Notes: generated by a model from the sequence alone, not told the origin. A stretch of 62,196 nucleotides of DNA from Candidatus Falkowbacteria bacterium S5_I03 (GCA_019248265.1 JAEHGX010000009.1:1-62196); one strand, 5' to 3'; counted from the first letter of the stretch, positions 28,922-41,978 are shown. A program made the numbers and translations.

Positions 28922-28960
28922 ATAATTATTTGTAATTTATAATTCAATTAATAATAGAAA

Positions 28961-28989
28961 AAAATATCACATTAAAAGCCGAAAATCAA
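28961..28989 (-). promoter_or_regulatory. Probable ileS promoter
   Basis: On the minus strand TTGATT (28984-28989) and TATTTT (28961-28966) are 17 bases apart, about 40 bases before the ileS ATG. I see no T-box specifier or antiterminator in the leader. Confidence 0.5.
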
Positions 28990-29037
28990 GTCAAAGAGAA
29001 ACAACATAACTATATAGACACTGGCATTAAATAAAAA

Positions 29038-30849
29038 TTATATAATTTTTTTAAAAATTAAAAAATTTGTTATTTGTTTCACGCTTTCTTCTATGGATAA
29101 CTGATCGGTATCGAGTGTCAAATCAGGATTTAATGGCTCTTCATATGGATGAGATATGCCAGTAAAATTATTAATTTCTCCCAACTGTGCTTTTTTATAA
29201 AACCCCTTTACATCCCTCTTTTTGCAAGTACCGATAGATGCTTTTACATAAATCTCAAAAAAGTTTTTATTTTTTTTCATATCATTTCTTTGTTTCCTAT
29301 ATGGAGAAATAAAGGAAGCTAGTACTATAATCCCGTGATTCGATAGTTTATTGGCAACGTAAGAAGCTACTTTAATATTCTTTACTCTATCGTTCTTTGA
29401 ATAGTCAAAACCTAAAGACAATTCCTTCCTAAATATATCGCCATCAAGAGACTCTACTTTTATTCCTTTGGATTTTAAGTTTTTAAACAAGCGAGAAGAA
29501 ATTGTTGTTTTTCCAGAACAAGATAGTCCAGTAAACCATAAAATAGCACCATGCTTCTCATTTAATACACGCTTCTCATTTAATATTGGTTCTTTTCTAG
29601 GGCAATTCTTAGTAATAACTCCGCCAGCAACCGTATTATTTGTTAATTCGTCTATTACAATAAAACTGCCCATTGATTTATTTTCCGAAAAATAATCAAA
29701 ATAAATAGGCTCCTGAGTTCTTATTCTAACTAGCCCTATGTCATTACTATTCATAGATTCTTTATTCTGACGGGCTAAAAAATTATTTTTATTAATTACG
29801 TATTCTATGTTTTTAACAAAAAAACTAGTTGTATGTGTTGTGTGTTTCAAAAAATATCTTGATTTATTATTCATTTTCTCCCTGCCAAACCAACATATGT
29901 AAGCTAGGAAATCATTAGAAATAAAAGGTTTTTTATTTTTACAAAGCAAATCTCCTCGGCTAATATCAATATTATCTTTTAACAAAACTAATACTGACTG
30001 TTTCTTGGTAGCTGAAGGCGATATACTACCAGAAACAAAAATTTTTTCTATAACAGTCTTTTCTCCAGATGGAAGAACCATTACTTTATCACCGGTTAAC
30101 ACTTCTCCAGCTTCTATTGTTCCGGCATATCCTCGAAAATACTGATTACCCCTAACAACTAGTTGAATCGGGAGTCGTAGATTTTTTGTATTGTTTTCGG
30201 GACTAATTTTCATTTTTTCAAAAAAATCTAGAACAGTTTTTCCTTTATACCATGGCATATTACCCTTTTTCCTGACAACCATATCACCGCTTATAGACGA
30301 AACTGGAATGAATAATGGCCCATTTAATCGTATTTTTTTACAGAAACTTACACACTGCCTCTTTACCTTAATAAACTCTTTCTCATTGTAATTGACTAAG
30401 TCCATCTTATTAATAACAATGGCTATACTAGGAATACGCAGCAAGGCCAGAATAAATAAATGTCTTTTTGTCTGCTCCGACAATCCTTTTCTTACATCAA
30501 CTAAAATAATAGCCCTGTCTGCTTTAGAGGCACCCGTAAACATATTTCGAGTATACTGTTCGTGGCCGGGGACATCGGCGATGATAAAATGCCCATTTTT
30601 TGTAAAAAAATATCTATAAGCAACATCTATTGTAATCTTCTGTTCCCTTTCAGACGACAACCCGTCAGTAAATAGTGAAAAATCAATTTCTCCATTAATG
30701 CCCCCCGCCATTTTCACGGCCTCTACTTGGTCTTCATATACTTGGCCAGAATCAAATAATAAACGACCTATCAACGTCGACTTTCCGTCGTCCACACTTC
30801 CGGCAACAACAATTGTGGTGTAATTTGAATTATTATCCTTTTTTTTCAT
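29038..30849 (-). CDS. cysNC: Bifunctional sulfate adenylyltransferase subunit 1 / APS kinase
   Basis: A 603-residue CysN-CysC fusion, like NodQ. The N-terminal GTPase domain drives adenylyl sulfate formation together with CysD: G1 AGSVDDGKST (about 16-25), G3 DVPGHEQ (about 94-100) and G4 NKMDLV. Beta-barrel domains 2 and 3 follow (about 225-420). The C-terminal APS kinase has the P-loop GLSCSGKTT (about 437-445), SLDGDIFRKELS and the ISPYRKQR segment, and turns APS into PAPS. No PAPS reductase or sulfite reductase is nearby, so the output seems to be PAPS for sulfation. The coding sequence is visibly more AT-rich than ileS. One base separates it from cysD. Confidence 0.95.
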   Translation of the reverse strand: MKKKDNNSNYTTIVVAGSVDDGKSTLIGRLLFDSGQVYEDQVEAVKMAGGINGEIDFSLFTDGLSSEREQKITIDVAYRYFFTKNGHFIIADVPGHEQYTRNMFTGASKADRAIILVDVRKGLSEQTKRHLFILALLRIPSIAIVINKMDLVNYNEKEFIKVKRQCVSFCKKIRLNGPLFIPVSSISGDMVVRKKGNMPWYKGKTVLDFFEKMKISPENNTKNLRLPIQLVVRGNQYFRGYAGTIEAGEVLTGDKVMVLPSGEKTVIEKIFVSGSISPSATKKQSVLVLLKDNIDISRGDLLCKNKKPFISNDFLAYICWFGREKMNNKSRYFLKHTTHTTSFFVKNIEYVINKNNFLARQNKESMNSNDIGLVRIRTQEPIYFDYFSENKSMGSFIVIDELTNNTVAGGVITKNCPRKEPILNEKRVLNEKHGAILWFTGLSCSGKTTISSRLFKNLKSKGIKVESLDGDIFRKELSLGFDYSKNDRVKNIKVASYVANKLSNHGIIVLASFISPYRKQRNDMKKNKNFFEIYVKASIGTCKKRDVKGFYKKAQLGEINNFTGISHPYEEPLNPDLTLDTDQLSIEESVKQITNFLIFKKII

Positions 30850-30850
30850 A

Positions 30851-31750
30851 TTAAAAGTAACCTTGTTTCTTTTTTTTCTCCATAGAGGAATCGGAAGTAT
30901 AATCTATTGCTCTAGTTGATCTCTCTGACTTCTTTACATTTTTTACCTCTTCCAAAATCTCCTCTAAACTAGTAGCCGTGGAAAAAACGACCCCGGTAGA
31001 AGGAGAACATCCCAAGGTTCTATATCTACACTTAGCACGGATAACTTTTTCTCCGCTTACCGGTTTATTAAATTTATCAACCCTAATATAAATACCGTTC
31101 CTTTTAAAAACTGACCTGTTAACAGAAAAATAAAGAGGCACAACCTCTATTTTTTCCTTAACTATATAAGACCAAATATCAGCTTCGGTCCAATTTGATA
31201 AGGGAAAAATTCTCATTGAATTTTTTTCTCCAATATTTGTATTATATAATTCCCATAATTCTGGTCGTTGATTTTTAGGATCCCAGGAACCAAATTCATC
31301 TCTAACTGAAAATACTCTTTCTTTTGCTCTTGATTTTTCTTCCTCTCTTCTAGCGCCACCTATTGCTGCATTAAAATTATATTTCCTCAAGGCGTCAAGT
31401 AGTGGTTTTGTTTTTTTATGATATATATAATAATCAGATGAGGCGTCTTCTGGCTTTAATTTCCCTGCTTCTTTAGATAAATTTTTGTAGACAATTAAAT
31501 CTATTCCATTTTTTTTAATACAATCATCTCTAAATTTTATCATCTCTTCAAATTTATATCCCGTGTCTATATGAAGAAACTTAAAAGGAACCTTCCCTGG
31601 GAAAAAAGCCTTTTTACATAAATGAAGCAAAACCGAAGAGTCTTTTCCTATTGAATATAATAAAACTAAATTTTTATAATTAGCCGAGGCTTCTCTTATA
31701 ATATTTATACCCTCTGATTCTAATTTATCTAAATAAGTTAGTTTATTCAT
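30851..31750 (-). CDS. cysD: Sulfate adenylyltransferase subunit 2
   Basis: The catalytic subunit of the CysDN ATP sulfurylase. The 299-residue length is that of the family. The PP-loop is YSIGKDSSVLLHL (about 32-44), HIDTGYKFEEMI (about 61-72) follows, and the C-terminal KCRYRTLGCSPSTG (about 240-253) and SERSTRAIDYTSDSSMEKKKK regions are characteristic of CysD. It precedes cysNC by one base, and both are transcribed away from a 239-base AT-rich gap. Confidence 0.96.
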   Translation of the reverse strand: MNKLTYLDKLESEGINIIREASANYKNLVLLYSIGKDSSVLLHLCKKAFFPGKVPFKFLHIDTGYKFEEMIKFRDDCIKKNGIDLIVYKNLSKEAGKLKPEDASSDYYIYHKKTKPLLDALRKYNFNAAIGGARREEEKSRAKERVFSVRDEFGSWDPKNQRPELWELYNTNIGEKNSMRIFPLSNWTEADIWSYIVKEKIEVVPLYFSVNRSVFKRNGIYIRVDKFNKPVSGEKVIRAKCRYRTLGCSPSTGVVFSTATSLEEILEEVKNVKKSERSTRAIDYTSDSSMEKKKKQGYF

Positions 31751-31919
31751 AATATTTTACAAAAAAAGAAATAAACAACATTTAAAAACTTTAAGATAAA
31801 AAAACCTTATTTATTCTATTTTTACATAAAATTACAAAAAAATCAATGAAATTTACAAGTTATAGAATATTTTAAGTATTTTCAGAAAAATTAAATTATT
31901 TTCAAATAAAAAATAAAAA

Positions 31920-31948
31920 TTGACTTTTATTAATTATTATGTTATTCT
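31920..31948 (+). promoter_or_regulatory. Promoter of the small 121-residue gene
   Basis: TTGACT (31920-31925) and TATTCT (31943-31948) are 17 bases apart, 41 bases before the ATG at 31990. The rest of the gap 31751-31919 is extremely AT-rich and should hold the opposed cysD promoter, which I could not place with confidence. Confidence 0.65.
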
Positions 31949-31989
31949 TTAATAAATTATTAGTTTTTTAACAACAAATTTAGAAAAAA

Positions 31990-32355
31990 ATGAAAACAAA
32001 AACAGACGAAGCTTATCGTGATTTAAAAAATCGCCTATCGTACCAAAAACTTTTTTTTACAGAAGACGTGGCTGAAAATTTTAAAATATTAGATAACGAA
32101 TTAAACACGGTCAATATAATGAAGTGTAGCCTGACAGATTTAGAAATAGAATCGCCAGGAAGTTCAAATTATTTAGCCTATTTACTCCAATCTAATAATG
32201 AAGTTAACTTTGGCCTTTGTGAAAAAGTAAAAATCTGGCGCAACCAATCTGGTTTTCAAAGCAGATGCCAACATGACGGAAAACTAATGTTTTGTCGATG
32301 TTTTGGAAATCTTAATAACTGCTCAATACTAAACAACAAACCAAAAAAGACCTAG
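31990..32355 (+). CDS. Unknown 121-residue Cys-containing protein inside the sulfation block
   Basis: I do not recognise this protein. It is soluble, with no signal peptide or membrane helix, and is polar and Lys-rich. Six cysteines are present, five of them in the C-terminal half, with CQHDGKLMFCRCF and NNCS suggesting a small metal-binding or redox site. It stands alone on the plus strand between the cysD and sulfotransferase genes, with a good promoter before it and a terminator overlapping its stop. This independent unit argues that it is a real gene. Function unknown. Confidence 0.6.
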   Translation: MKTKTDEAYRDLKNRLSYQKLFFTEDVAENFKILDNELNTVNIMKCSLTDLEIESPGSSNYLAYLLQSNNEVNFGLCEKVKIWRNQSGFQSRCQHDGKLMFCRCFGNLNNCSILNNKPKKT

Positions 32356-32373
32356 ATTAAACCGGGTCTTTTT
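32343..32373. terminator. Bidirectional terminator between the small gene and the sulfotransferase gene
   Basis: AAAAAGACC (32344-32352) pairs with GGTCTTTTT (32365-32373). The stem overlaps the stop codon of the plus-strand gene and lies just past the end of the minus-strand sulfotransferase gene. Both sides end in A/T runs. Confidence 0.8.
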
Positions 32374-32389
32374 AAAAATATACAGGATG

Positions 32390-33148
32390 TTAATAGTGAA
32401 GCAATTTATTAATTTTTTTCGACAAAGTATTCTTATCTATTTCATCAGCGAAATCTTTATATGTCTTTCTCCTGGAAAGTTCACCAATGCCTCCTTTTTT
32501 AATTCCACGAGAATATTCCGGCAAATCCGTATCTCCGGTAACATTAGTATAATCTGAGAATTTTTTAAAATCACTGCTGTAACTCATCTCTGTATATTTA
32601 CAAATTGATTTCATAGTCTTAACTGGAAATTTACAAAAATCCTCATAACGAAAAATTTTGATCTTTTTTTTAATCAAATGCTCAATAAATTCATTTAAAT
32701 ATGTAAGCTTTGTATCATAAAAAGTTCTGGGGGACGCTTGAAATGACAACCAAACGTCTATTGAATTTCTAACTAAGGCAAACGGGGTGACGGGAAAAAA
32801 TTTTGAGATGCTAATTAGAGTAGATAATCTTTTTGATGGATTAAAATCGTTATATTTAGAAGGAACAAAACTACCAAAGGTCCAATCTCTTATAACCAAA
32901 ATCTTATCATTTTTTTCACAATAGTCATAAAGCTCCTTTATATTATTTATGAATCCGTCGGTTTTTAAATTGATACGATACCACTTCATGGCCTGTTCTT
33001 TTATTGTGTTGCAAGAGCTTGGGCATAGAGCCTCTACATTAACTTCTGACAACATAATTATGTTGGGCATTTTAGCAATACATCTGTTAAGTAGCGTCCC
33101 GCCGGAACGCGCATAAGCCAACATAATAATTATTGGTCTATTTTTCAT
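32390..33148 (-). CDS. PAPS-dependent sulfotransferase family protein
   Basis: A 252-residue protein with the two PAPS-binding elements of sulfotransferases. The 5'-phosphosulfate loop is AYARSGGTLLNR (11-22), comparable with PRSGTTLL. The 3'-phosphate site is FALVRNSIDVWLSF (123-136), with Arg127 and Ser135 at the usual spacing of eight. A YEDF segment, common in Stf0/NodH-like and carbohydrate sulfotransferases, follows. It should transfer sulfate from PAPS to a hydroxyl or amine of an unknown acceptor. The start overlaps the radical SAM gene by 11 bases, so it is last in that operon. cysD and cysNC nearby would supply PAPS. Confidence 0.82.
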   Translation of the reverse strand: MKNRPIIIMLAYARSGGTLLNRCIAKMPNIIMLSEVNVEALCPSSCNTIKEQAMKWYRINLKTDGFINNIKELYDYCEKNDKILVIRDWTFGSFVPSKYNDFNPSKRLSTLISISKFFPVTPFALVRNSIDVWLSFQASPRTFYDTKLTYLNEFIEHLIKKKIKIFRYEDFCKFPVKTMKSICKYTEMSYSSDFKKFSDYTNVTGDTDLPEYSRGIKKGGIGELSRRKTYKDFADEIDKNTLSKKINKLLHY

Positions 33149-34100
33149 TTTTAGAATTATTAAAAAAAATATTATACTCGCGTATAGTTGAATTAAGCTG
33201 TTCTTCTAAATCGTCAATGCCTCCTCCGATCGGGTTTAAAAAATAAGATGAGGTATAAAAAAATTTTCCGCCATGAGATCCTATCCAGTATCTCCCATCA
33301 AGAAGTGGGCTTTTTTTTGTGCTAATAATATTAGACTGAAATTCTGGAGAAACTGGAGCTATTCTGAAGAAAAAATCCGAATCAAACTGATAAATAATAC
33401 CATATCTATTTTTAATGGCGGACTCTAGAACGTTTAATTTTCTGTCCCTAAACCAATTAAGAAATAACTTTTTTATATCATTAAATTTTACTTTGGGCTT
33501 ACCAAAACTCAATTCTTCAATTAATTTAAGATTGATTTGGTTATCATAACAAAAATCGAGTAATTTATTTATGACCGGAAAATTAATCTCCGTTACTGGT
33601 GTATTAAATTCTACTCTAGCCCCTTGCCTCTTTATAGTCTTAACCGAATTAATAATATCTAATATTCTCTTTTGGCTAATAGCGACGCCAGCTGTTTTAG
33701 AATATATATTTGAATCCAGAGATGGAAAGTGAATATGAAAATCAGATATACCCCTTTTCACTAATTTCAATCCTATTTGGGGGTTAAGTAAAGAACCATT
33801 AGTAGTGATACCAATATTTTTAATTTTAAATTTTCTTAAAATATCGACTATTTCTGGCAAATCTTTTCTCAACATCGGCTCTCCACCTGTTAGCTGAATA
33901 TGAATATTGTTATTTTTTATAACACCACCTAATCGTGCAGCGAACTCCCCTATCAGGTTAATTGGCATCCTCTCGTAGCCTTTATTATATTTCCCGTCGG
34001 TAAAAGGCCCGCAATAAAAACATTTTTGATTACACGCGCCTATAAGGGAAAGCCTTATTTCGTAAAATGGCATGGTGATGTCATATTTAGTTTCTTTCAT
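33138..34100 (-). CDS. Radical SAM enzyme of unknown substrate
   Basis: A 320-residue radical SAM protein. The 4Fe-4S motif CNQKCFYC (Cys23, Cys27, Cys30) and the SAM-binding LTGGEPMLRKDL are intact. The N-terminal half resembles MoaA, but the C-terminal half lacks the second cysteine cluster and the terminal GG of MoaA, so it is not a molybdenum cofactor enzyme. It also has no SPASM cysteines. I chose ATG 34100, which overlaps the DUF62 stop as ATGA and has a weak GGAAA upstream; a TTG four codons earlier is less likely. Confidence 0.85.
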   Translation of the reverse strand: MKETKYDITMPFYEIRLSLIGACNQKCFYCGPFTDGKYNKGYERMPINLIGEFAARLGGVIKNNNIHIQLTGGEPMLRKDLPEIVDILRKFKIKNIGITTNGSLLNPQIGLKLVKRGISDFHIHFPSLDSNIYSKTAGVAISQKRILDIINSVKTIKRQGARVEFNTPVTEINFPVINKLLDFCYDNQINLKLIEELSFGKPKVKFNDIKKLFLNWFRDRKLNVLESAIKNRYGIIYQFDSDFFFRIAPVSPEFQSNIISTKKSPLLDGRYWIGSHGGKFFYTSSYFLNPIGGGIDDLEEQLNSTIREYNIFFNNSKNEK

Positions 34101-34867
34101 ATTATTTTCCAAGTTAATATATCGCCCACCTTAACATTGAGTTCCTTTGCTCCATCTTTACATCTCACTTTTCCCAATTCCGGCAATCCCATTGAACTAC
34201 CAGAATACAGAACCCAAGTACCATCTTCGTGATTCATCATTCTTTCAGAAGCAACAGCCGTAACAGATTTTTTACCGTTTACAAACAAATTTACAATTTC
34301 CCCTTCTTTATAAATAAGCGGCTTTCCTTTTATTTTCATGAGTCCAAAATTATCTATATGAACAACAGTCCCGTCTGGTATGGAAAACTTATTTAGCCTG
34401 TTTCTTCCTATCCTTTTCCCATATTCCCTAAATGGGATTCCTGAAGCCATTTTAGCCACAACTGGAGAATGAACATATTTCCCGCCAAAGGCATAAAATT
34501 TTTTTTCTGTTATTTCATACAAAGATGATAAACCAAAATCTTTTAAAAGCCAATTTAAAGCTCCGGTATCCGCCCCCTCAAAATAAACTCCATCTGAAAT
34601 TTTTCCAAAAATTCTCTTAGGTCTTTTTTGTAATGGATTTAAAATTAACATAAATAATACATTTTCACGATAATGATCCGCCATTAAGCGTGCTAGAAAT
34701 GCCCCATTAATAATAGAAAACTCCTCTGCCGGAACGAGAGGCTCGACTACAGTATAATAATTCCCCAACTTCTCACATTCCAGCAATATCTGCCTTCTCA
34801 TTTCACAAAAAGCGACATCCTTGCAATCAGTAATTATTACTATATGTCTTATTTTAATTTCTTTCAT
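34097..34867 (-). CDS. DUF62 / SAM hydroxide adenosyltransferase family protein without the catalytic triad
   Basis: This 256-residue protein matches the DUF62 (fluorinase/chlorinase-related) fold along its length: ITDCKD (12-17) for the TDFG start, an NGAFLARLMADHY helix, LILNPLQKRPKR (74-85) for the VDPGVG...R segment, a GADTGALNWLL stretch (98-108) for PDNG, the GTVVHIDNFG domain junction, and a C-terminal LNVKVGD. The archaeal enzymes use an Asp-Arg-His triad. By alignment the Asp is Asn77, the Arg is Lys84 (Arg85 adjacent) and the His is Gly128. It is probably not a normal SAM hydrolase. It is coupled to the radical SAM gene by ATGA. Confidence 0.72.
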   Translation of the reverse strand: MKEIKIRHIVIITDCKDVAFCEMRRQILLECEKLGNYYTVVEPLVPAEEFSIINGAFLARLMADHYRENVLFMLILNPLQKRPKRIFGKISDGVYFEGADTGALNWLLKDFGLSSLYEITEKKFYAFGGKYVHSPVVAKMASGIPFREYGKRIGRNRLNKFSIPDGTVVHIDNFGLMKIKGKPLIYKEGEIVNLFVNGKKSVTAVASERMMNHEDGTWVLYSGSSMGLPELGKVRCKDGAKELNVKVGDILTWKII

Positions 34868-34893
34868 ATTTTAAAAATTAAACTAATATTTTT

Positions 34894-36582
34894 TTAAAAA
34901 ACAGAAATAATAACATTATACTTGCATGGTAGCGTACTGCTGCTTATTTTATCAAAAATGCTTGAAACATATATTTTTTTTGATTTTCGTGATAATTTTT
35001 CATAAGCGTCAATTCTCATAATCTCCCAAGGTGTTATAATTTTGGTAAAAACTTCTTCAGTTATGACGGGATTATTAGAATTATTTTTTTTATAGGCGAG
35101 CGTGGTACCAACAATAATTTTTTTAACGCTTGGGATGCTAGCCACTACACACCATTTATTATTATTTTCTTTTTCTAAAAGAATTTTTCTTCTGAAACCA
35201 TCACTATCAACAAACCTATTTATATCCCGCTCTGCCTTCTTTAAAACATTTCTTTTCCATTTTTCGAGGAGATTGGCGGTCTTGTTATAATAATTATTAT
35301 TTATATCTAAACGGGCCCCTACAAGATTATTATAATTAGGACAACCTTTCACCCTTGAACTAATAGTCACAAAACAATCTGAGCTTCTATATTTTTTTAT
35401 TATACTTGGAGACACATAAGAATTTAAACCTCTTTCAAATCTTCCAGGCGGGAAAATATCATAACGATTATGAGCCTTTGCATATGTTGAATCGCTAAAC
35501 TCCTTTCTCATAATGTTGGCCTCATTATATAAAATTTTTTCAAATATTTTTACCAATTTTTTTGTTCTCCCCGTTATATCATAAAATACAAGAAAAGCTG
35601 TCGATATTATGGTGTGATATACCCCCGGATAAAATTTACCATTAGAAATTATATACCCTGGCATAGAAGATAAAAAGCCGCCACCTCTTGCAGGGCGACA
35701 ATTTATTGTGGTTTCAATTCTCTGTCCGTTAAAAGTGTGACGCGCATGACAAGGGTGGCTAAATTCATCTACGCGAAAATCCGTCATATCATATTGAACA
35801 TCCATTCGCTTATTTAGAGATTTTTTTAAATCAGTATAAACCATCTTTTTAAAAACATCGAAAGTAACAAAATGAATACTTATGATAAATTTCTTATTTC
35901 TAACCGGGAATTTTTGGCTAAAAACATCAACATTATCACTTTTAATAAGTTTCTTAAATAACTTTATTCTCTTTAAAAATATGTATTTATCTTTTTCAAA
36001 AAAAATTTCACTATTAATTAATTTTTTCCATGCCCATTTTTTAAAAAAACCATCCTTTATAACAATCAGGGCGTCTATATCTGAAAAATCTTTACTTCTA
36101 GAATTTTCACGTATACCAAAAAACGGAGAATAACTCATAGAGCCGCCAAAAATAATAGATTCCACCCCGTCTGAAAAAATTTCTGGAAGTTTTTCCATAA
36201 TCTCATAACGCTCAATTGTGGGTAAAACGCTTTCCCTAAAAGATGGCTGCCTTTTGCCACAAATAACTACCCCGCAAGAACTAAGAAATTCGGATAAATT
36301 AGCAGTTTTTATTACTTGCATTAACTGTTCTTTAAAATTATTGCGGATTTCGACCGGTTGATTACTAGCTGAAACAAAATAAGATTTTTCGCATAAACCA
36401 GCAAGCCAGCCAGCAACAATTCTTTGCTCTGGCAAATCTCCAAAAAAATCATTAGCCATACTAATATAACTGGAAACGTAAAATTGCCAATTTTTTTTGT
36501 TTATATGCAAATAAAATTTTTTAAAATTACAAAAAAGCTTGTTAAGCGACGTTTGACCTTCTAAGGTGTTACTATTTTTCAT
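34894..36582 (-). CDS. Large protein with a nucleotidyltransferase (pol beta-type) fold domain
   Basis: A 562-residue protein with no close family that I know. A nucleotidyltransferase core is visible: IIFGGSMSYSPFFG (143-156) followed by the metal-binding SDIDALIVI (167-175, Asp168 and Asp170), and a candidate third carboxylate at Asp219 in NVDVFSQ. The N-terminal 130 residues are helical. The C-terminal ~300 residues, rich in Lys and aromatic residues, match nothing I recognise. It could transfer a nucleotide to a small molecule, protein or sugar. It overlaps asnB by 11 bases. Confidence 0.6.
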   Translation of the reverse strand: MKNSNTLEGQTSLNKLFCNFKKFYLHINKKNWQFYVSSYISMANDFFGDLPEQRIVAGWLAGLCEKSYFVSASNQPVEIRNNFKEQLMQVIKTANLSEFLSSCGVVICGKRQPSFRESVLPTIERYEIMEKLPEIFSDGVESIIFGGSMSYSPFFGIRENSRSKDFSDIDALIVIKDGFFKKWAWKKLINSEIFFEKDKYIFLKRIKLFKKLIKSDNVDVFSQKFPVRNKKFIISIHFVTFDVFKKMVYTDLKKSLNKRMDVQYDMTDFRVDEFSHPCHARHTFNGQRIETTINCRPARGGGFLSSMPGYIISNGKFYPGVYHTIISTAFLVFYDITGRTKKLVKIFEKILYNEANIMRKEFSDSTYAKAHNRYDIFPPGRFERGLNSYVSPSIIKKYRSSDCFVTISSRVKGCPNYNNLVGARLDINNNYYNKTANLLEKWKRNVLKKAERDINRFVDSDGFRRKILLEKENNNKWCVVASIPSVKKIIVGTTLAYKKNNSNNPVITEEVFTKIITPWEIMRIDAYEKLSRKSKKIYVSSIFDKISSSTLPCKYNVIISVF

Positions 36583-38299
36583 AAGTGTTATCTAATTGAG
36601 AAAGCCATAATTCTAAACACAATAAAACCCAAATTTTTTGTGATGCCCTTTCTGGGCGTTTTCTTTTTTCATAAAAATCATCCAAATAATTATTTATTAC
36701 TTTTAATGAAAACATGGTCTTTAATTGCCCAGAACGAAGTCTCTTAAACACATAATTTTTAATTTGAGAACTGTGAAGCCATCTATCTATAGGGGCGCCG
36801 AATCCTTGCTTACTACGGCGAGTAAAAGTATCTGGCATATATTCAGAAAGAATATCTTTAAGTATATGCTTCTGTTCCCCATTACTGATCTTATATTCAT
36901 ATGGTAGATTAAAAACAAATTCTAGTAAATCAATATCTAAAAATGGCGATCTGACCTCTAATCCATGCATCATTCCGGCTCTATCAATTTTAGTTAAAAT
37001 TTGTCCAGGTAAATGAGATGTTATATCAAACATTGTCACGCAATCAATCTGATTTTTTAAATTATAAAAGACTTCCTCAGTAAGAATATTATTATTTATA
37101 AAATTATCAGACCCCCATAATGCTACTCGCTCATCGAACGTAAACGGGCAAATAAAATTAAGACGATTATAAAGAAGCTCGTCGGACATTTTTGTGTGCC
37201 ATTTGTATCCAAGAAACAACTCATCTGCTCCATCGCCAGATAGGACAATCTTCACTTTTTTAGATGCTAAACCAGATATAATGTGTTGAGGAAAATCCGA
37301 TGTGTCCGCATGAGGCTCATCAAAATAATGAATTACGCGCTTCACTTCATCAATTAAACATTTATCTATTTTGGATACAAAATGTTTTGCATTTATTTTT
37401 TTCCCGACTTGCTTGGCAAAAGACAATTCATCATGACCGGCGTAACTAACGGAAAAAGCTTTTAATGGATAGCCTAAATTCTTATTAGCAATAAGCGCAA
37501 TTAACGAAGAATCCACTCCTCCCGATAGAAAAACCCCTATTTCAACATCTGAATTTCCCAGTCTTTTTCTTACGGCATTAATTAATAAGCGACGGACTTC
37601 ATTCTTGGCCTCATCATAAGGGATATTTATAGATTTATGTCTTAAATGCCAATATCTTTTAAGTAATAGTTTGCCATTTTTAAATATTCCGCAGTGTGCC
37701 GGAGGAATTTGAAAAATATTTTTATAAACTGATTTCCATGGTGGTATATACATCAACCTTAGATAATCATCGATAGCACAATAATCTAATTGGGGCTTTA
37801 CGGCATTAGAGGCAATTAACGATTTAATTTCTGATGCCATCAATATTTTTTTATTATCAAAAAAATAATAAAACGGCTTCTGGCCTAATCTATCTCTAGC
37901 AACAAACATTTCATTTTTAAAATCATCCCAAATAACAAAAGCAAATATCCCATCAAAGTATTTAACACAATTATTTCCCCACACGCTATAAGCTTTTAAG
38001 ATGGTTTCTGCGTCAGATTCCGTATTAAAAATAATTCCTCTTTCTTTTAATTTAATACGCAACTCTAAATTATTATAAATCTCTCCATTAAAAGATATGG
38101 ATAAATGGCCGTCGGACATTGGCTGTCCGCCATTTTCTAAATCAACAATGGATAACCTCCTGTGCCCTAACCAGCAATTAGAAAATAATGCCTCCCCAAA
38201 ACCGTCGGGACCTCGTTTTTCTAATTTTCGAAGCATGCTATCAATATCATAATTAGTTATATTTAATTGTTCTCCGGCGATCGCAATAAATCCACACAT
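36572..38299 (-). CDS. asnB: Glutamine-hydrolysing asparagine synthase family protein
   Basis: A two-domain AsnB homologue of 575 residues. With ATG 38299 the nucleophile Cys2 of the class II glutaminase domain (MCGFIA) is correctly exposed; the upstream ATG would bury it. RRLSIVDL and SFNGEIYN are glutaminase landmarks. The synthetase domain has the PP-loop LSGGVDSSLIA (about 258-268) and LSGDGADELFLGY. All expected residues are present, so it is probably active. It may make asparagine, or amidate a carboxyl group of a surface sugar or small molecule, as AsnB homologues do in polysaccharide and antibiotic clusters. Coupled to the nucleotidyltransferase-fold gene. Confidence 0.93.
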   Translation of the reverse strand: MCGFIAIAGEQLNITNYDIDSMLRKLEKRGPDGFGEALFSNCWLGHRRLSIVDLENGGQPMSDGHLSISFNGEIYNNLELRIKLKERGIIFNTESDAETILKAYSVWGNNCVKYFDGIFAFVIWDDFKNEMFVARDRLGQKPFYYFFDNKKILMASEIKSLIASNAVKPQLDYCAIDDYLRLMYIPPWKSVYKNIFQIPPAHCGIFKNGKLLLKRYWHLRHKSINIPYDEAKNEVRRLLINAVRKRLGNSDVEIGVFLSGGVDSSLIALIANKNLGYPLKAFSVSYAGHDELSFAKQVGKKINAKHFVSKIDKCLIDEVKRVIHYFDEPHADTSDFPQHIISGLASKKVKIVLSGDGADELFLGYKWHTKMSDELLYNRLNFICPFTFDERVALWGSDNFINNNILTEEVFYNLKNQIDCVTMFDITSHLPGQILTKIDRAGMMHGLEVRSPFLDIDLLEFVFNLPYEYKISNGEQKHILKDILSEYMPDTFTRRSKQGFGAPIDRWLHSSQIKNYVFKRLRSGQLKTMFSLKVINNYLDDFYEKRKRPERASQKIWVLLCLELWLSQLDNTYEK

Positions 38300-38307
38300 A
38301 AAAAATA

Positions 38308-38955
38308 TCAAAAATTATCTACGGCTTTTAAAAATATATCCTTAGCACTCAAATAACTAGAATCTATTAATAAATCGTGTCCCTCTATATCAACTGGAAG
38401 CCCCCCTCTATCAATTCTCAAATCCAACTCGCTTTTACTCATTTCTGGGTTTCTTCTGGAAAGTCTTTCCTCTCTAATCTGTTTATTGGCGGTCATATGA
38501 ATCCAAATGATTCTATCGCCCAAAGCTTCCTTTAATTCTTTAGCTATTTTAACTGTAGGAGAAACAAAACAGTTGATACCTCCCTTTTTAATTTCACTGA
38601 TCCAGCTGCGAGGGCAGCCGTAATATGCCCCGCCAAAATAAGATGATTCCATGGAATCTTGTATATAGCAACTTTTTAAAAAATTACTCTTAAATTCTTC
38701 TACTGATAAAAATATATTATCAACTCCGTCAATTTCGCCATCTCTAATATTTCTTGTTGTGTGCGTGGGTGATGGTTTTAAATTAAAAAAAGCAACTAAA
38801 CAGCGAAATAAGGTTGTTTTGCCGCTTACAGAGGGGCCCGTAATAATAACTGATTTTTTCATCTTGCTTCTCAAGTTCTTTGGAATTTCTGTAAGTAGAC
38901 CAGAATACTCTTCAGCCCAAGAAATTCTTCCGCATTGATGGCTATAATTTTCCAT
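38308..38955 (-). CDS. Guanylate-kinase-like P-loop protein
   Basis: A 215-residue P-loop kinase. The Walker A loop is GPSVSGKTTL (40-49). HTTRNIRDGEIDGVDNIFLS (about 69-88) resembles the GMP-binding TTR.PR.GE.dG.dY.F segment of guanylate kinase. The 31-residue N-terminal extension is unusual; an internal ATG before KKSVIITG could be the true start. The C-terminal half diverges from Gmk, so the phosphate acceptor may differ. Eight bases separate it from asnB and 17 from the upstream Nudix gene. Confidence 0.72.
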   Translation of the reverse strand: MENYSHQCGRISWAEEYSGLLTEIPKNLRSKMKKSVIITGPSVSGKTTLFRCLVAFFNLKPSPTHTTRNIRDGEIDGVDNIFLSVEEFKSNFLKSCYIQDSMESSYFGGAYYGCPRSWISEIKKGGINCFVSPTVKIAKELKEALGDRIIWIHMTANKQIREERLSRRNPEMSKSELDLRIDRGGLPVDIEGHDLLIDSSYLSAKDIFLKAVDNF

Positions 38956-38972
38956 AACGCTTTTTTATCTTA

Positions 38973-39867: not shown

Positions 39868-40596
39868 TTATTCCAACTCCGCCAAAGCCTTTTCCAATTC
39901 ATCTTTAATAAACCGCGAGTTATCATAAACGTTTTGCCAATAATGCAGGGCATTCAAAAGACTTCTGGGAATTTCATTTAAAGCATCGGTTTTGGCATCA
40001 GTTAAACCCGCCGCCTCATTATATAAACTATGCATCTCTTCAAATTCCGAGCCGACTAAATTATGTTTTTCACAGTATGGTTGCCAAAGACGCTGGAATT
40101 TTTCTTCAGACAATTCAACCATGCTTTTTATTTCATTTAACTTATCGCCCAAACTAATCATCATATCGACTTTTTCGCCGCCCCGAGTTTCTTTCAGGCT
40201 CCTAATCTTTTGCCAGTCATCGTCTTCTAAAATTCCATAAGTCCGAGGTAAAAAAGTTAAATCTCCAGAAAAGCGACTATTTTCAATTTTATCCTTGCCT
40301 TCATAAAAATACTGTTCTCGTTTTTCGGCAATCCCCTTCCAGGCTCGATGTTTGGGATCGCTTTTGTGAAAAATATAGACGCCACCGCTAGTCGGTTCAA
40401 CAAAATCTCTCTTTTTCAATTCATAAGCACCGCCTTGCCTTGTATGCTGCTGTAAATAATCACGTAAAACCGCTGCTTGTTCAAAGTCTTCTTTTTTAAT
40501 CGCCTCATCAAGCTGAGCTGAGACCAATTTTAAATCAGGATTTTCTTTCATGATTTCGGAGGAACGCTTAGTCATTTCCATTTTTTCTAAACCCAT
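39868..40596 (-). CDS. UVR-motif protein, paralogue A
   Basis: A 242-residue soluble protein that I cannot assign. Its N-terminus has a UvrB/UvrC-type UVR helical hairpin, LDEAIKKEDFEQAAVLRD (about 28-45). A middle motif SDPKHRAWKGI and a C-terminal segment LNALHYWQNVYDNSRFIKDEL are shared with the protein at 41229-41978, so the two are paralogues. In UvrB the UVR motif binds UvrC; in other proteins such as ClpC/McsA it mediates protein contacts. No catalytic motif is visible. The start (MGLEKM) is uncertain; MEMTKR five codons later is possible. Confidence 0.65.
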   Translation of the reverse strand: MGLEKMEMTKRSSEIMKENPDLKLVSAQLDEAIKKEDFEQAAVLRDYLQQHTRQGGAYELKKRDFVEPTSGGVYIFHKSDPKHRAWKGIAEKREQYFYEGKDKIENSRFSGDLTFLPRTYGILEDDDWQKIRSLKETRGGEKVDMMISLGDKLNEIKSMVELSEEKFQRLWQPYCEKHNLVGSEFEEMHSLYNEAAGLTDAKTDALNEIPRSLLNALHYWQNVYDNSRFIKDELEKALAELE

Positions 40597-41228: not shown

Positions 41229-41978
41229 TTATTCAGTCATTTCTTTAATTGCCAACTCTAAATCATCAGCTATCTGGCTAGCATTATCATATATTCCATT
41301 CCAATAAGCGAGCGGCTTACTGATAAAATCCGGCATGGCCTCCATTCTCTTCCGCAATACATCCTGTGTTTTTGGCAGACCCGGAAAACGACTAGGAGCA
41401 TTTTCAACGTTAACTTTTGAAATCGGCTCGCGTTTATTATAGGTTTGAAAAATATTATCAATTTTTGATTTGGCAATATTTTTTAACTCTTGCGCTTCGC
41501 TATATAAATTATTAAGAGAGCTTAAATAATCTGTTCTTTCACCCAAATCTTGTAAATGTTTATAATGTCTAATGTCCTCCCAAAGCTCGGTGGCAAACCC
41601 TCCTAAATATTGATCATTCTTGCCTAAATAACGAGAAAATGAAGAAGATTTAACAATCTCTTTACCAATAAACATATCGGCCATTTGTTTGTCCATAATT
41701 CCCTGCCAAGCCCTTAGCTTAGGATCGTCGATTTCATCTTCGGATGCAGATTTCTCATTATTTTCCTTTTCTTCACCTAAAATATCTTCTTCACGGATAT
41801 AGGCTAGCGGTTGATTATTTTTGCTTAATTTCTCTTGTACGTCCCGTAAACAAGTTGCCTGTTCATAATCTTCCTCGGAAATTGCCTCTTTCATTTGCAG
41901 GCTAATATATTGCAAAGCTCCGAGTTCTTTCTTTTTCTCGGGACTGGCGGAAAAATTTGGCATCTTTTCAGGACTCAT
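41229..41978 (-). CDS. UVR-motif protein, paralogue B
   Basis: A 249-residue protein related to the one at 39868-40596. It has the UVR hairpin MKEAISEEDYEQATCLRD (about 28-45) at the same position, the DPKLRAWQGI middle motif and a LAYWNGIYDNASQIADDL C-terminal segment. Between the UVR motif and the middle motif is a charged, low-complexity stretch (GEEKENNEKSASEDE). The function is unknown. Two divergent copies separated by an HD gene suggest an old duplication of a functional unit. Confidence 0.65.
   Translation of the reverse strand: MSPEKMPNFSASPEKKKELGALQYISLQMKEAISEEDYEQATCLRDVQEKLSKNNQPLAYIREEDILGEEKENNEKSASEDEIDDPKLRAWQGIMDKQMADMFIGKEIVKSSSFSRYLGKNDQYLGGFATELWEDIRHYKHLQDLGERTDYLSSLNNLYSEAQELKNIAKSKIDNIFQTYNKREPISKVNVENAPSRFPGLPKTQDVLRKRMEAMPDFISKPLAYWNGIYDNASQIADDLELAIKEMTE

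Follow-up and report, generated by a model that had tools for sequence, protein, structure and literature searches.

A 62,196-nt stretch of DNA from Candidatus Falkowbacteria bacterium S5_I03 (GCA_019248265.1, JAEHGX010000009.1:1-62196; hereafter the window), a member of the candidate phyla radiation (CPR), carries at positions 29038-38955 a block of eight minus-strand genes that encode predicted enzymes for synthesis of the sulfate donor 3′-phosphoadenosine 5′-phosphosulfate (PAPS), a putative PAPS-type sulfotransferase and five other proteins. Our analysis revealed that this block is a sharply bounded foreign insertion acquired by horizontal transfer. The explanation that we favor, with a probability of roughly 45%, is that it represents a pair of acquired modules, a biosynthetic operon (module 1) and a CysD-CysNC PAPS supply (module 2), which together would make an amidated, nucleotide-activated and sulfated small molecule. 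The gene positions, which agree with those of the initial annotation, are as follows.

28922..38972: insertion, flanked by the ileS start (28921) and the Nudix end (38973), defined by synteny with genome G003
29038..30849, minus strand: CysNC, sulfate adenylyltransferase large subunit fused to adenosine 5′-phosphosulfate (APS) kinase; TIGR02034 and TIGR00455 over cut-off
30851..31750, minus strand: CysD, sulfate adenylyltransferase small subunit; TIGR02039 411.6 bits (cut-off 396.6)
32390..33148, minus strand: predicted PAPS-type sulfotransferase, last operon gene; PF13469 E 1.9e-5, both PAPS motifs, fold matches
33138..34112, minus strand: radical S-adenosylmethionine (SAM) enzyme, MoaA-derived; N-terminal CX3CX2C cluster motif present as CNQKCFYC
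34097..34867, minus strand: DUF62 (SAM_HAT) variant without the His-Arg-Asp triad of SAM hydrolases; PF01887 SAM_HAT_N 30.0 bits (cut-off 26.3)
34894..36582, minus strand: large nucleotidyltransferase (NTase)-fold protein; GGS...SDID motif, weak model
36572..38311, minus strand: AsnB-type glutamine amidotransferase; TIGR01536 432.8 (cut-off 267)
38308..38955, minus strand: P-loop kinase related to guanylate kinase, first operon gene; PF00625 56 bits

The block is recognized as foreign because its G+C content is low and because a genome of the same genus has the Nudix and ileS genes directly adjacent. Its G+C content is 0.318, compared with 0.396 in the remainder of the window, and G+C at third codon positions ranges from 0.23 to 0.30 in the eight block genes and from 0.30 to 0.41 in four flanking genes. 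Low G+C (0.31-0.35) is common to the six-gene operon and CysD-CysNC. In the single-contig genome G003, Nudix and ileS are separated by 15 bp with no block between them, and the flanks are syntenic with those of the window at 75-99% identity, from secA to Nudix on one side and from ileS to the U32 peptidase gene on the other. The block is likewise absent from genome G015. The junctions fall at the final codons of Nudix and the initial codons of ileS. A search of the window for tRNAs was negative, and no integrase was recognized among the open reading frames (ORFs) at the insertion site.

Within the insertion, the genes for the kinase, AsnB, the NTase, the DUF62 variant, the radical SAM enzyme and the sulfotransferase follow one another in this order and likely constitute one operon, because consecutive genes overlap or are spaced by at most 26 nt. 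A search with an NTase profile identified a sister operon in G655, a CPR genome (97% complete) from another order of the same class, where the order is kinase, AsnB, NTase, DUF62 variant, enolase paralogue, sulfotransferase and the core proteins are 46-61% identical to those of the window. The six-gene operon of the initial annotation is supported, and its core order is kept in a second CPR order. The conservation extends to a five-gene core; the radical SAM enzyme is not obligatory, its position being occupied in G655 by the enolase paralogue. Compared with solved enolases, this paralogue has kept its C-terminal barrel motifs (K of LKVNQ and H of SHRSGE), whereas its N-terminus is degenerate. 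The NTase gene of G655 (L021:9359-9361) contains a single in-frame TGA in an otherwise intact frame. Phosphonate biosynthesis, a candidate raised by the enolase and NTase, was rejected: no phosphoenolpyruvate (PEP) mutase was recognized near either operon, and the paper searched described no matching cluster. The operon is rare and patchy, because few genomes in each survey carry its genes (the window genome being counted here and below): the NTase core is present in 3 of 380 phylum genomes, the close sulfotransferase clade in 2 of 284 class genomes, where it is confined to the window and G655 operons, and the DUF62 variant in 2 of 111 order genomes.

In the two-module explanation, module 1 would comprise the fixed core (kinase, AsnB, NTase, DUF62 variant and sulfotransferase) and one exchangeable tailoring slot, filled by a MoaA-like radical SAM enzyme in the window and by the enolase paralogue in G655. 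AsnB would amidate a carboxylate in a glutamine-dependent reaction, the NTase and kinase would supply a nucleotide or phosphate that activates the scaffold, the slot enzyme would change its carbon skeleton, and the sulfotransferase would add a sulfate ester using PAPS made by CysD-CysNC of module 2. The data directly show the identities of the genes, the insertion, the operon order, the conservation of the core and the motifs; we infer the reactions, their order, the substrate and product, and the feeding of module 1 by module 2.

The last gene of the operon encodes a credible sulfotransferase-fold protein. Its Pfam score (25.5) is just below the cut-off of 27, whereas that of the G655 orthologue, with 61% identity, is above it (27.8). 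As claimed initially, both PAPS-binding motifs are present, the 5′-phosphosulfate-binding (5′-PSB) motif as R14-S-G-G-T and the 3′-phosphate-binding (3′-PB) motif as R127-x7-S135, and both are kept in the G655 orthologue. The top Foldseek matches of a low-confidence structural model (pLDDT 57.7) were PAPS sulfotransferases, including TPST2 (E 1.6e-4), while a second structural alignment of this weak model gave Z scores of 8-10 for sulfotransferases and also for P-loop kinases. Since the P-loop kinases lag only slightly behind, we regard the fold evidence as supporting but not settling the assignment; the best matches agree with the predicted PAPS sulfotransferase, but the PAPS pocket expected for it is not confidently modelled at this pLDDT.

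Judged from their sequences, the PAPS synthesis genes are intact. The CysN part of CysNC scores 452 against TIGR02034 (cut-off 336) and the APS kinase part 197 against TIGR00455 (cut-off 139), so that all models exceed curated cut-offs; the motifs SIGKDS, GSVDDGKS and GLSCSGKT are intact, and both CysNC P-loops are kept, in line with the proposal that CysD and CysNC make PAPS. Assimilatory sulfate reduction typically starts with CysDNC, which might instead feed sulfate reduction for cysteine synthesis. We regard such ordinary assimilation as the least probable of the alternatives: a genome-wide PF01507 search for PAPS reductase (genome 89% complete) yielded CysD as its sole match, which bears out the initial statement that no sulfate-reduction gene accompanies the block.

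CysD is present in 4 of 380 CPR phylum genomes, and outside the window it is tied to sulfotransferase or glycan genes or to a sulfonate importer; we count this rarity and these contexts in favor of the two-module explanation. The CysD and CysNC closest to those of the window (69% and 54% identity, respectively) are in G220, adjoining an SsuABC-type sulfonate importer (L010:7696-12954). In G384 (L009), CysDNC lies next to a sulfotransferase within a capsule-type locus, whereas the CysD and CysN genes of G174 adjoin a glycan locus. Distant homologues of the window sulfotransferase adjoin gmd and the GDP-fucose synthase gene on Rhodobacterales plasmids, and G560 has a weakly related sulfotransferase within a glycan locus. 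These CysDNC contexts and the Rhodobacterales GDP-fucose loci therefore make surface-glycan sulfation the main rival, one that we consider possible but doubtful. CysDNC and the sulfotransferase would then decorate a polysaccharide synthesized by glycosyltransferase loci elsewhere (3.3-8.6 kb and 55-62 kb of the window). The operon would contribute a special sugar or substituent, by making or amidating it; the window does carry its own gmd and glycosyltransferases. However, neither the block nor the G655 operon contains a glycosyltransferase or sugar enzyme, the close sulfotransferase clade is restricted to these two operons, and we know of no joint role of AsnB, DUF62 and kinase proteins in glycans.

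Several observations weigh against the two-module explanation, the first being that CysD-CysNC is a transcription unit of its own, outside the six-gene operon. CysD is about 640 bp from the sulfotransferase gene, and the region between the two units contains two further features.

32344..32373, minus strand: hairpin with a U-run, possible terminator, 17 nt past the sulfotransferase stop; RNA fold -10.7 kcal/mol, z -1.74
31990..32355, plus strand: 121-codon ORF, doubtful gene, between the two units; its 3′ end overlaps the hairpin

CysD lies beyond the hairpin, which is missing from the pattern-scan listing and whose z score is suggestive only. The ORF has a codon score of 0.09, compared with 0.24-0.35 in its neighbors, as well as a Cys-rich end and no family match in family-model scans. 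The sister operon also counts against the explanation, since G655 lacks CysDNC at the locus and has no APS kinase genome-wide by PF01583; its PAPS source is not evident, unless PAPS is imported, comes from a host or depends on a gene in the ~3% of the genome that is missing. An operon that always depends on CysDNC is not supported. This result agrees in part with the refuting condition set in the initial annotation, wide occurrence of the operon without cysDNC, although it comes from one genome. Further, the block contains no exporter, glycosyltransferase or precursor peptide genes, the structural models are weak (pLDDT 58 for the sulfotransferase and 50 for the NTase), the core operon is carried by two genomes only, and the block is seen in a single assembly of 75 contigs, in which a rare assembly fault is conceivable.

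Some of these points would fit two independent cargoes, in which the sulfotransferase-fold protein makes no use of PAPS or relies on another donor, and CysDNC arrived by chance or serves another sulfotransferase. G655 has kept its sulfotransferase with intact motifs while having no detectable APS kinase, CysDNC is a separate unit past a possible terminator, and P-loop kinases nearly match the sulfotransferase scores on the weak model. We nevertheless judge independent cargoes unlikely, given that both modules occupy one insertion with matching composition, that the 5′-PSB and 3′-PB motifs are present in both orthologues, and that a chance pairing of two rare traits, one of them CysD, is improbable.

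Among the remaining core proteins, the DUF62 variant and the kinase depart from known enzymes in defining residues. The His-Arg-Asp triad is a conserved feature of DUF62 SAM hydrolases (PMC10491745). In an alignment with canonical DUF62 proteins, the triad Asp, Arg and His of the window protein are replaced by N77, K84 and G128, respectively, and for this reason SAM hydrolysis by the known mechanism is predicted to be unlikely; Leu also replaces Asn in FGN, giving FGL. Related halogenases likewise lack the triad, so the variant may employ another nucleophile or have a binding role. The variant is 52% identical to its G655 counterpart and 45% identical to a protein of G707, and these three are the only members found here of a clade marked by the motifs FGGKxVHxP and DNFGL. 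The third gene, in G707 from the window's own order (L032:86-2611), is on a 3.2-kb contig and adjoins alpha/beta hydrolase-like and PPDK-like (PEP-utilising) genes. DUF62-profile matches in other CPR classes were set aside: these are stand-alone DUF62 genes, canonical or intermediate in type, and none is accompanied by an operon partner. Plasmid matches to DUF62, also rejected, were weak, partial and on E. coli-size records.

The kinase scores 71.8 against the guanylate kinase equivalog TIGR03263 (cut-off 160) and is 49% identical to its G655 orthologue. It retains the P-loop GPSVSGKT, but alignment with yeast guanylate kinase revealed replacement of residues that contact GMP in the yeast enzyme, among them the GMP-site Tyr and Glu, and of the Asp pair, so that residues defining textbook guanylate kinase activity have been lost. 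Membership of the DUF62 family held, but this protein and the kinase are atypical of their families. AsnB contains the PP-loop motif SGGVDS, is 58% identical to its G655 orthologue, and has as its best PDB match the hydroxyamidotransferase 7ylz. Its true start is probably an internal ATG, which gives MCGF with the nucleophile Cys at the N-terminus; the G655 orthologue begins MCG.

The NTase, for which no Pfam family match was found, has a core of ~380 aa and a C-terminal extension of ~180 aa that is common to G655, where the protein is 46% identical. The motif G-G-S...D-I-D is kept in four homologues, and in a low-confidence model (pLDDT 50) residues 122-351 align with the nucleotidyltransferases ANT(4′′), LinB and Tam41 at Z scores of 5-7. 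Each of two stand-alone relatives in unrelated CPR genomes (L014:9349-11179 and L015:9161-10884) either ends against a convergent DEDDh exonuclease gene or overlaps it, which makes a conserved NTase-exonuclease pair. A scan of genome contigs with the NTase yielded no more than a chance match to ATP synthase gamma in Clostridium, and NTase-profile matches in G468 and G439 are in unrelated contexts with no operon genes nearby. A tblastn search of the NTase against phages and plasmids gave no match, and no relatives of the NTase, the DUF62 variant, the sulfotransferase or the kinase were detected in scans of viral contigs.

The radical SAM enzyme scores 94.6 against the MoaA model TIGR02666 (cut-off 284), and the C-terminal third of its sequence is free of Cys, so that the second-cluster cysteines of MoaA are absent. 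It also matches the PADLOC pVip models (E 1e-14), which raises the alternative that a viperin-like radical SAM enzyme acts with a nucleotide kinase and an NTase to produce a modified nucleotide by which phages or competitors are blocked. The nucleotide-kinase-like kinase and the patchy, island-type distribution would suit such a defense or toxin-like chemistry. We find it very unlikely, however, since the enzyme is far closer to MoaA than to the NCBI viperin model NF038283 (44 bits, cut-off 180), an enolase takes its place in G655, and none of the other proteins matches a PADLOC model meaningfully; to our knowledge, no viperin system includes a sulfotransferase or AsnB. A more ambitious form of the two-module explanation, which we hold to be unlikely, is a mobile, hitherto undescribed CPR pathway to a sulfated nucleotide-derived small molecule, in which the triad-less DUF62 protein would perform a new adenosyl or nucleoside transfer and the slot would diversify the product.

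The genomes of CPR bacteria are very small, and these bacteria are believed to live on other microbes; sulfated compounds elsewhere serve in host signalling and antibiosis. A patchy, acquired operon with a conserved core, a swappable enzyme and a terminal sulfotransferase suggests that some CPR bacteria make a dedicated sulfated compound. The block also reveals a DUF62 clade whose active site is remodelled and a family of NTases that has no Pfam entry. Elsewhere in the window, an HD-domain gene lies between the genes for two related proteins (39868-40596 and 41229-41978; each 26-30% identical to the other's G003 counterpart), an arrangement kept in G003.

Our literature search on this gene set and on PAPS sulfotransferases in CPR found nothing relevant; the gene set, for which the initial annotation knew no described system, thus appears to be undescribed, and its link to PAPS is plausible, with one relative against it. 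Among known systems, NodPQ-NodH of Sinorhizobium, which serves the sulfated Nod factor, similarly places PAPS synthesis genes beside a PAPS sulfotransferase. It has no counterpart of AsnB, DUF62, NTase, kinase or radical SAM enzyme, however, and in the window CysDNC is separable from the operon, and no NodABC or lipochitooligosaccharide genes were recognized among the ORFs. RaxP/RaxQ-RaxST of Xanthomonas (PMC4216712) likewise dedicates an ATP sulfurylase and APS kinase to a sulfotransferase, and the best fold matches of the modelled window protein include tyrosylprotein sulfotransferases; in contrast to the Rax system, the block has no secretion system, peptidase or precursor peptide. The 5′-O-sulfamoyl nucleoside clusters of the ascamycin/nucleocidin type (PMC4257720) share an APS kinase, ATP sulfurylase, sulfotransferase and radical SAM enzyme with the block, but the ascamycin gene list (PMC4257720) includes no AsnB, NTase or DUF62 variant, the radical SAM enzyme of the block is MoaA-like rather than B12-binding, and the block lacks the halogenase, sulfatase, AcmN-type amidinotransferase and alanyl-tRNA-synthetase relatives of those clusters. 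The CPR capsule locus of G384 also has CysDNC next to a sulfotransferase, but among glycosyl and capsule genes, with a different sulfotransferase and none of the remaining operon genes. Finally, the DUF62 family of SAM hydrolases, fluorinases and chlorinases (PMC10491745) shares the SAM_HAT fold with the window variant, which lacks the triad as the halogenases do and belongs to a distinct clade.

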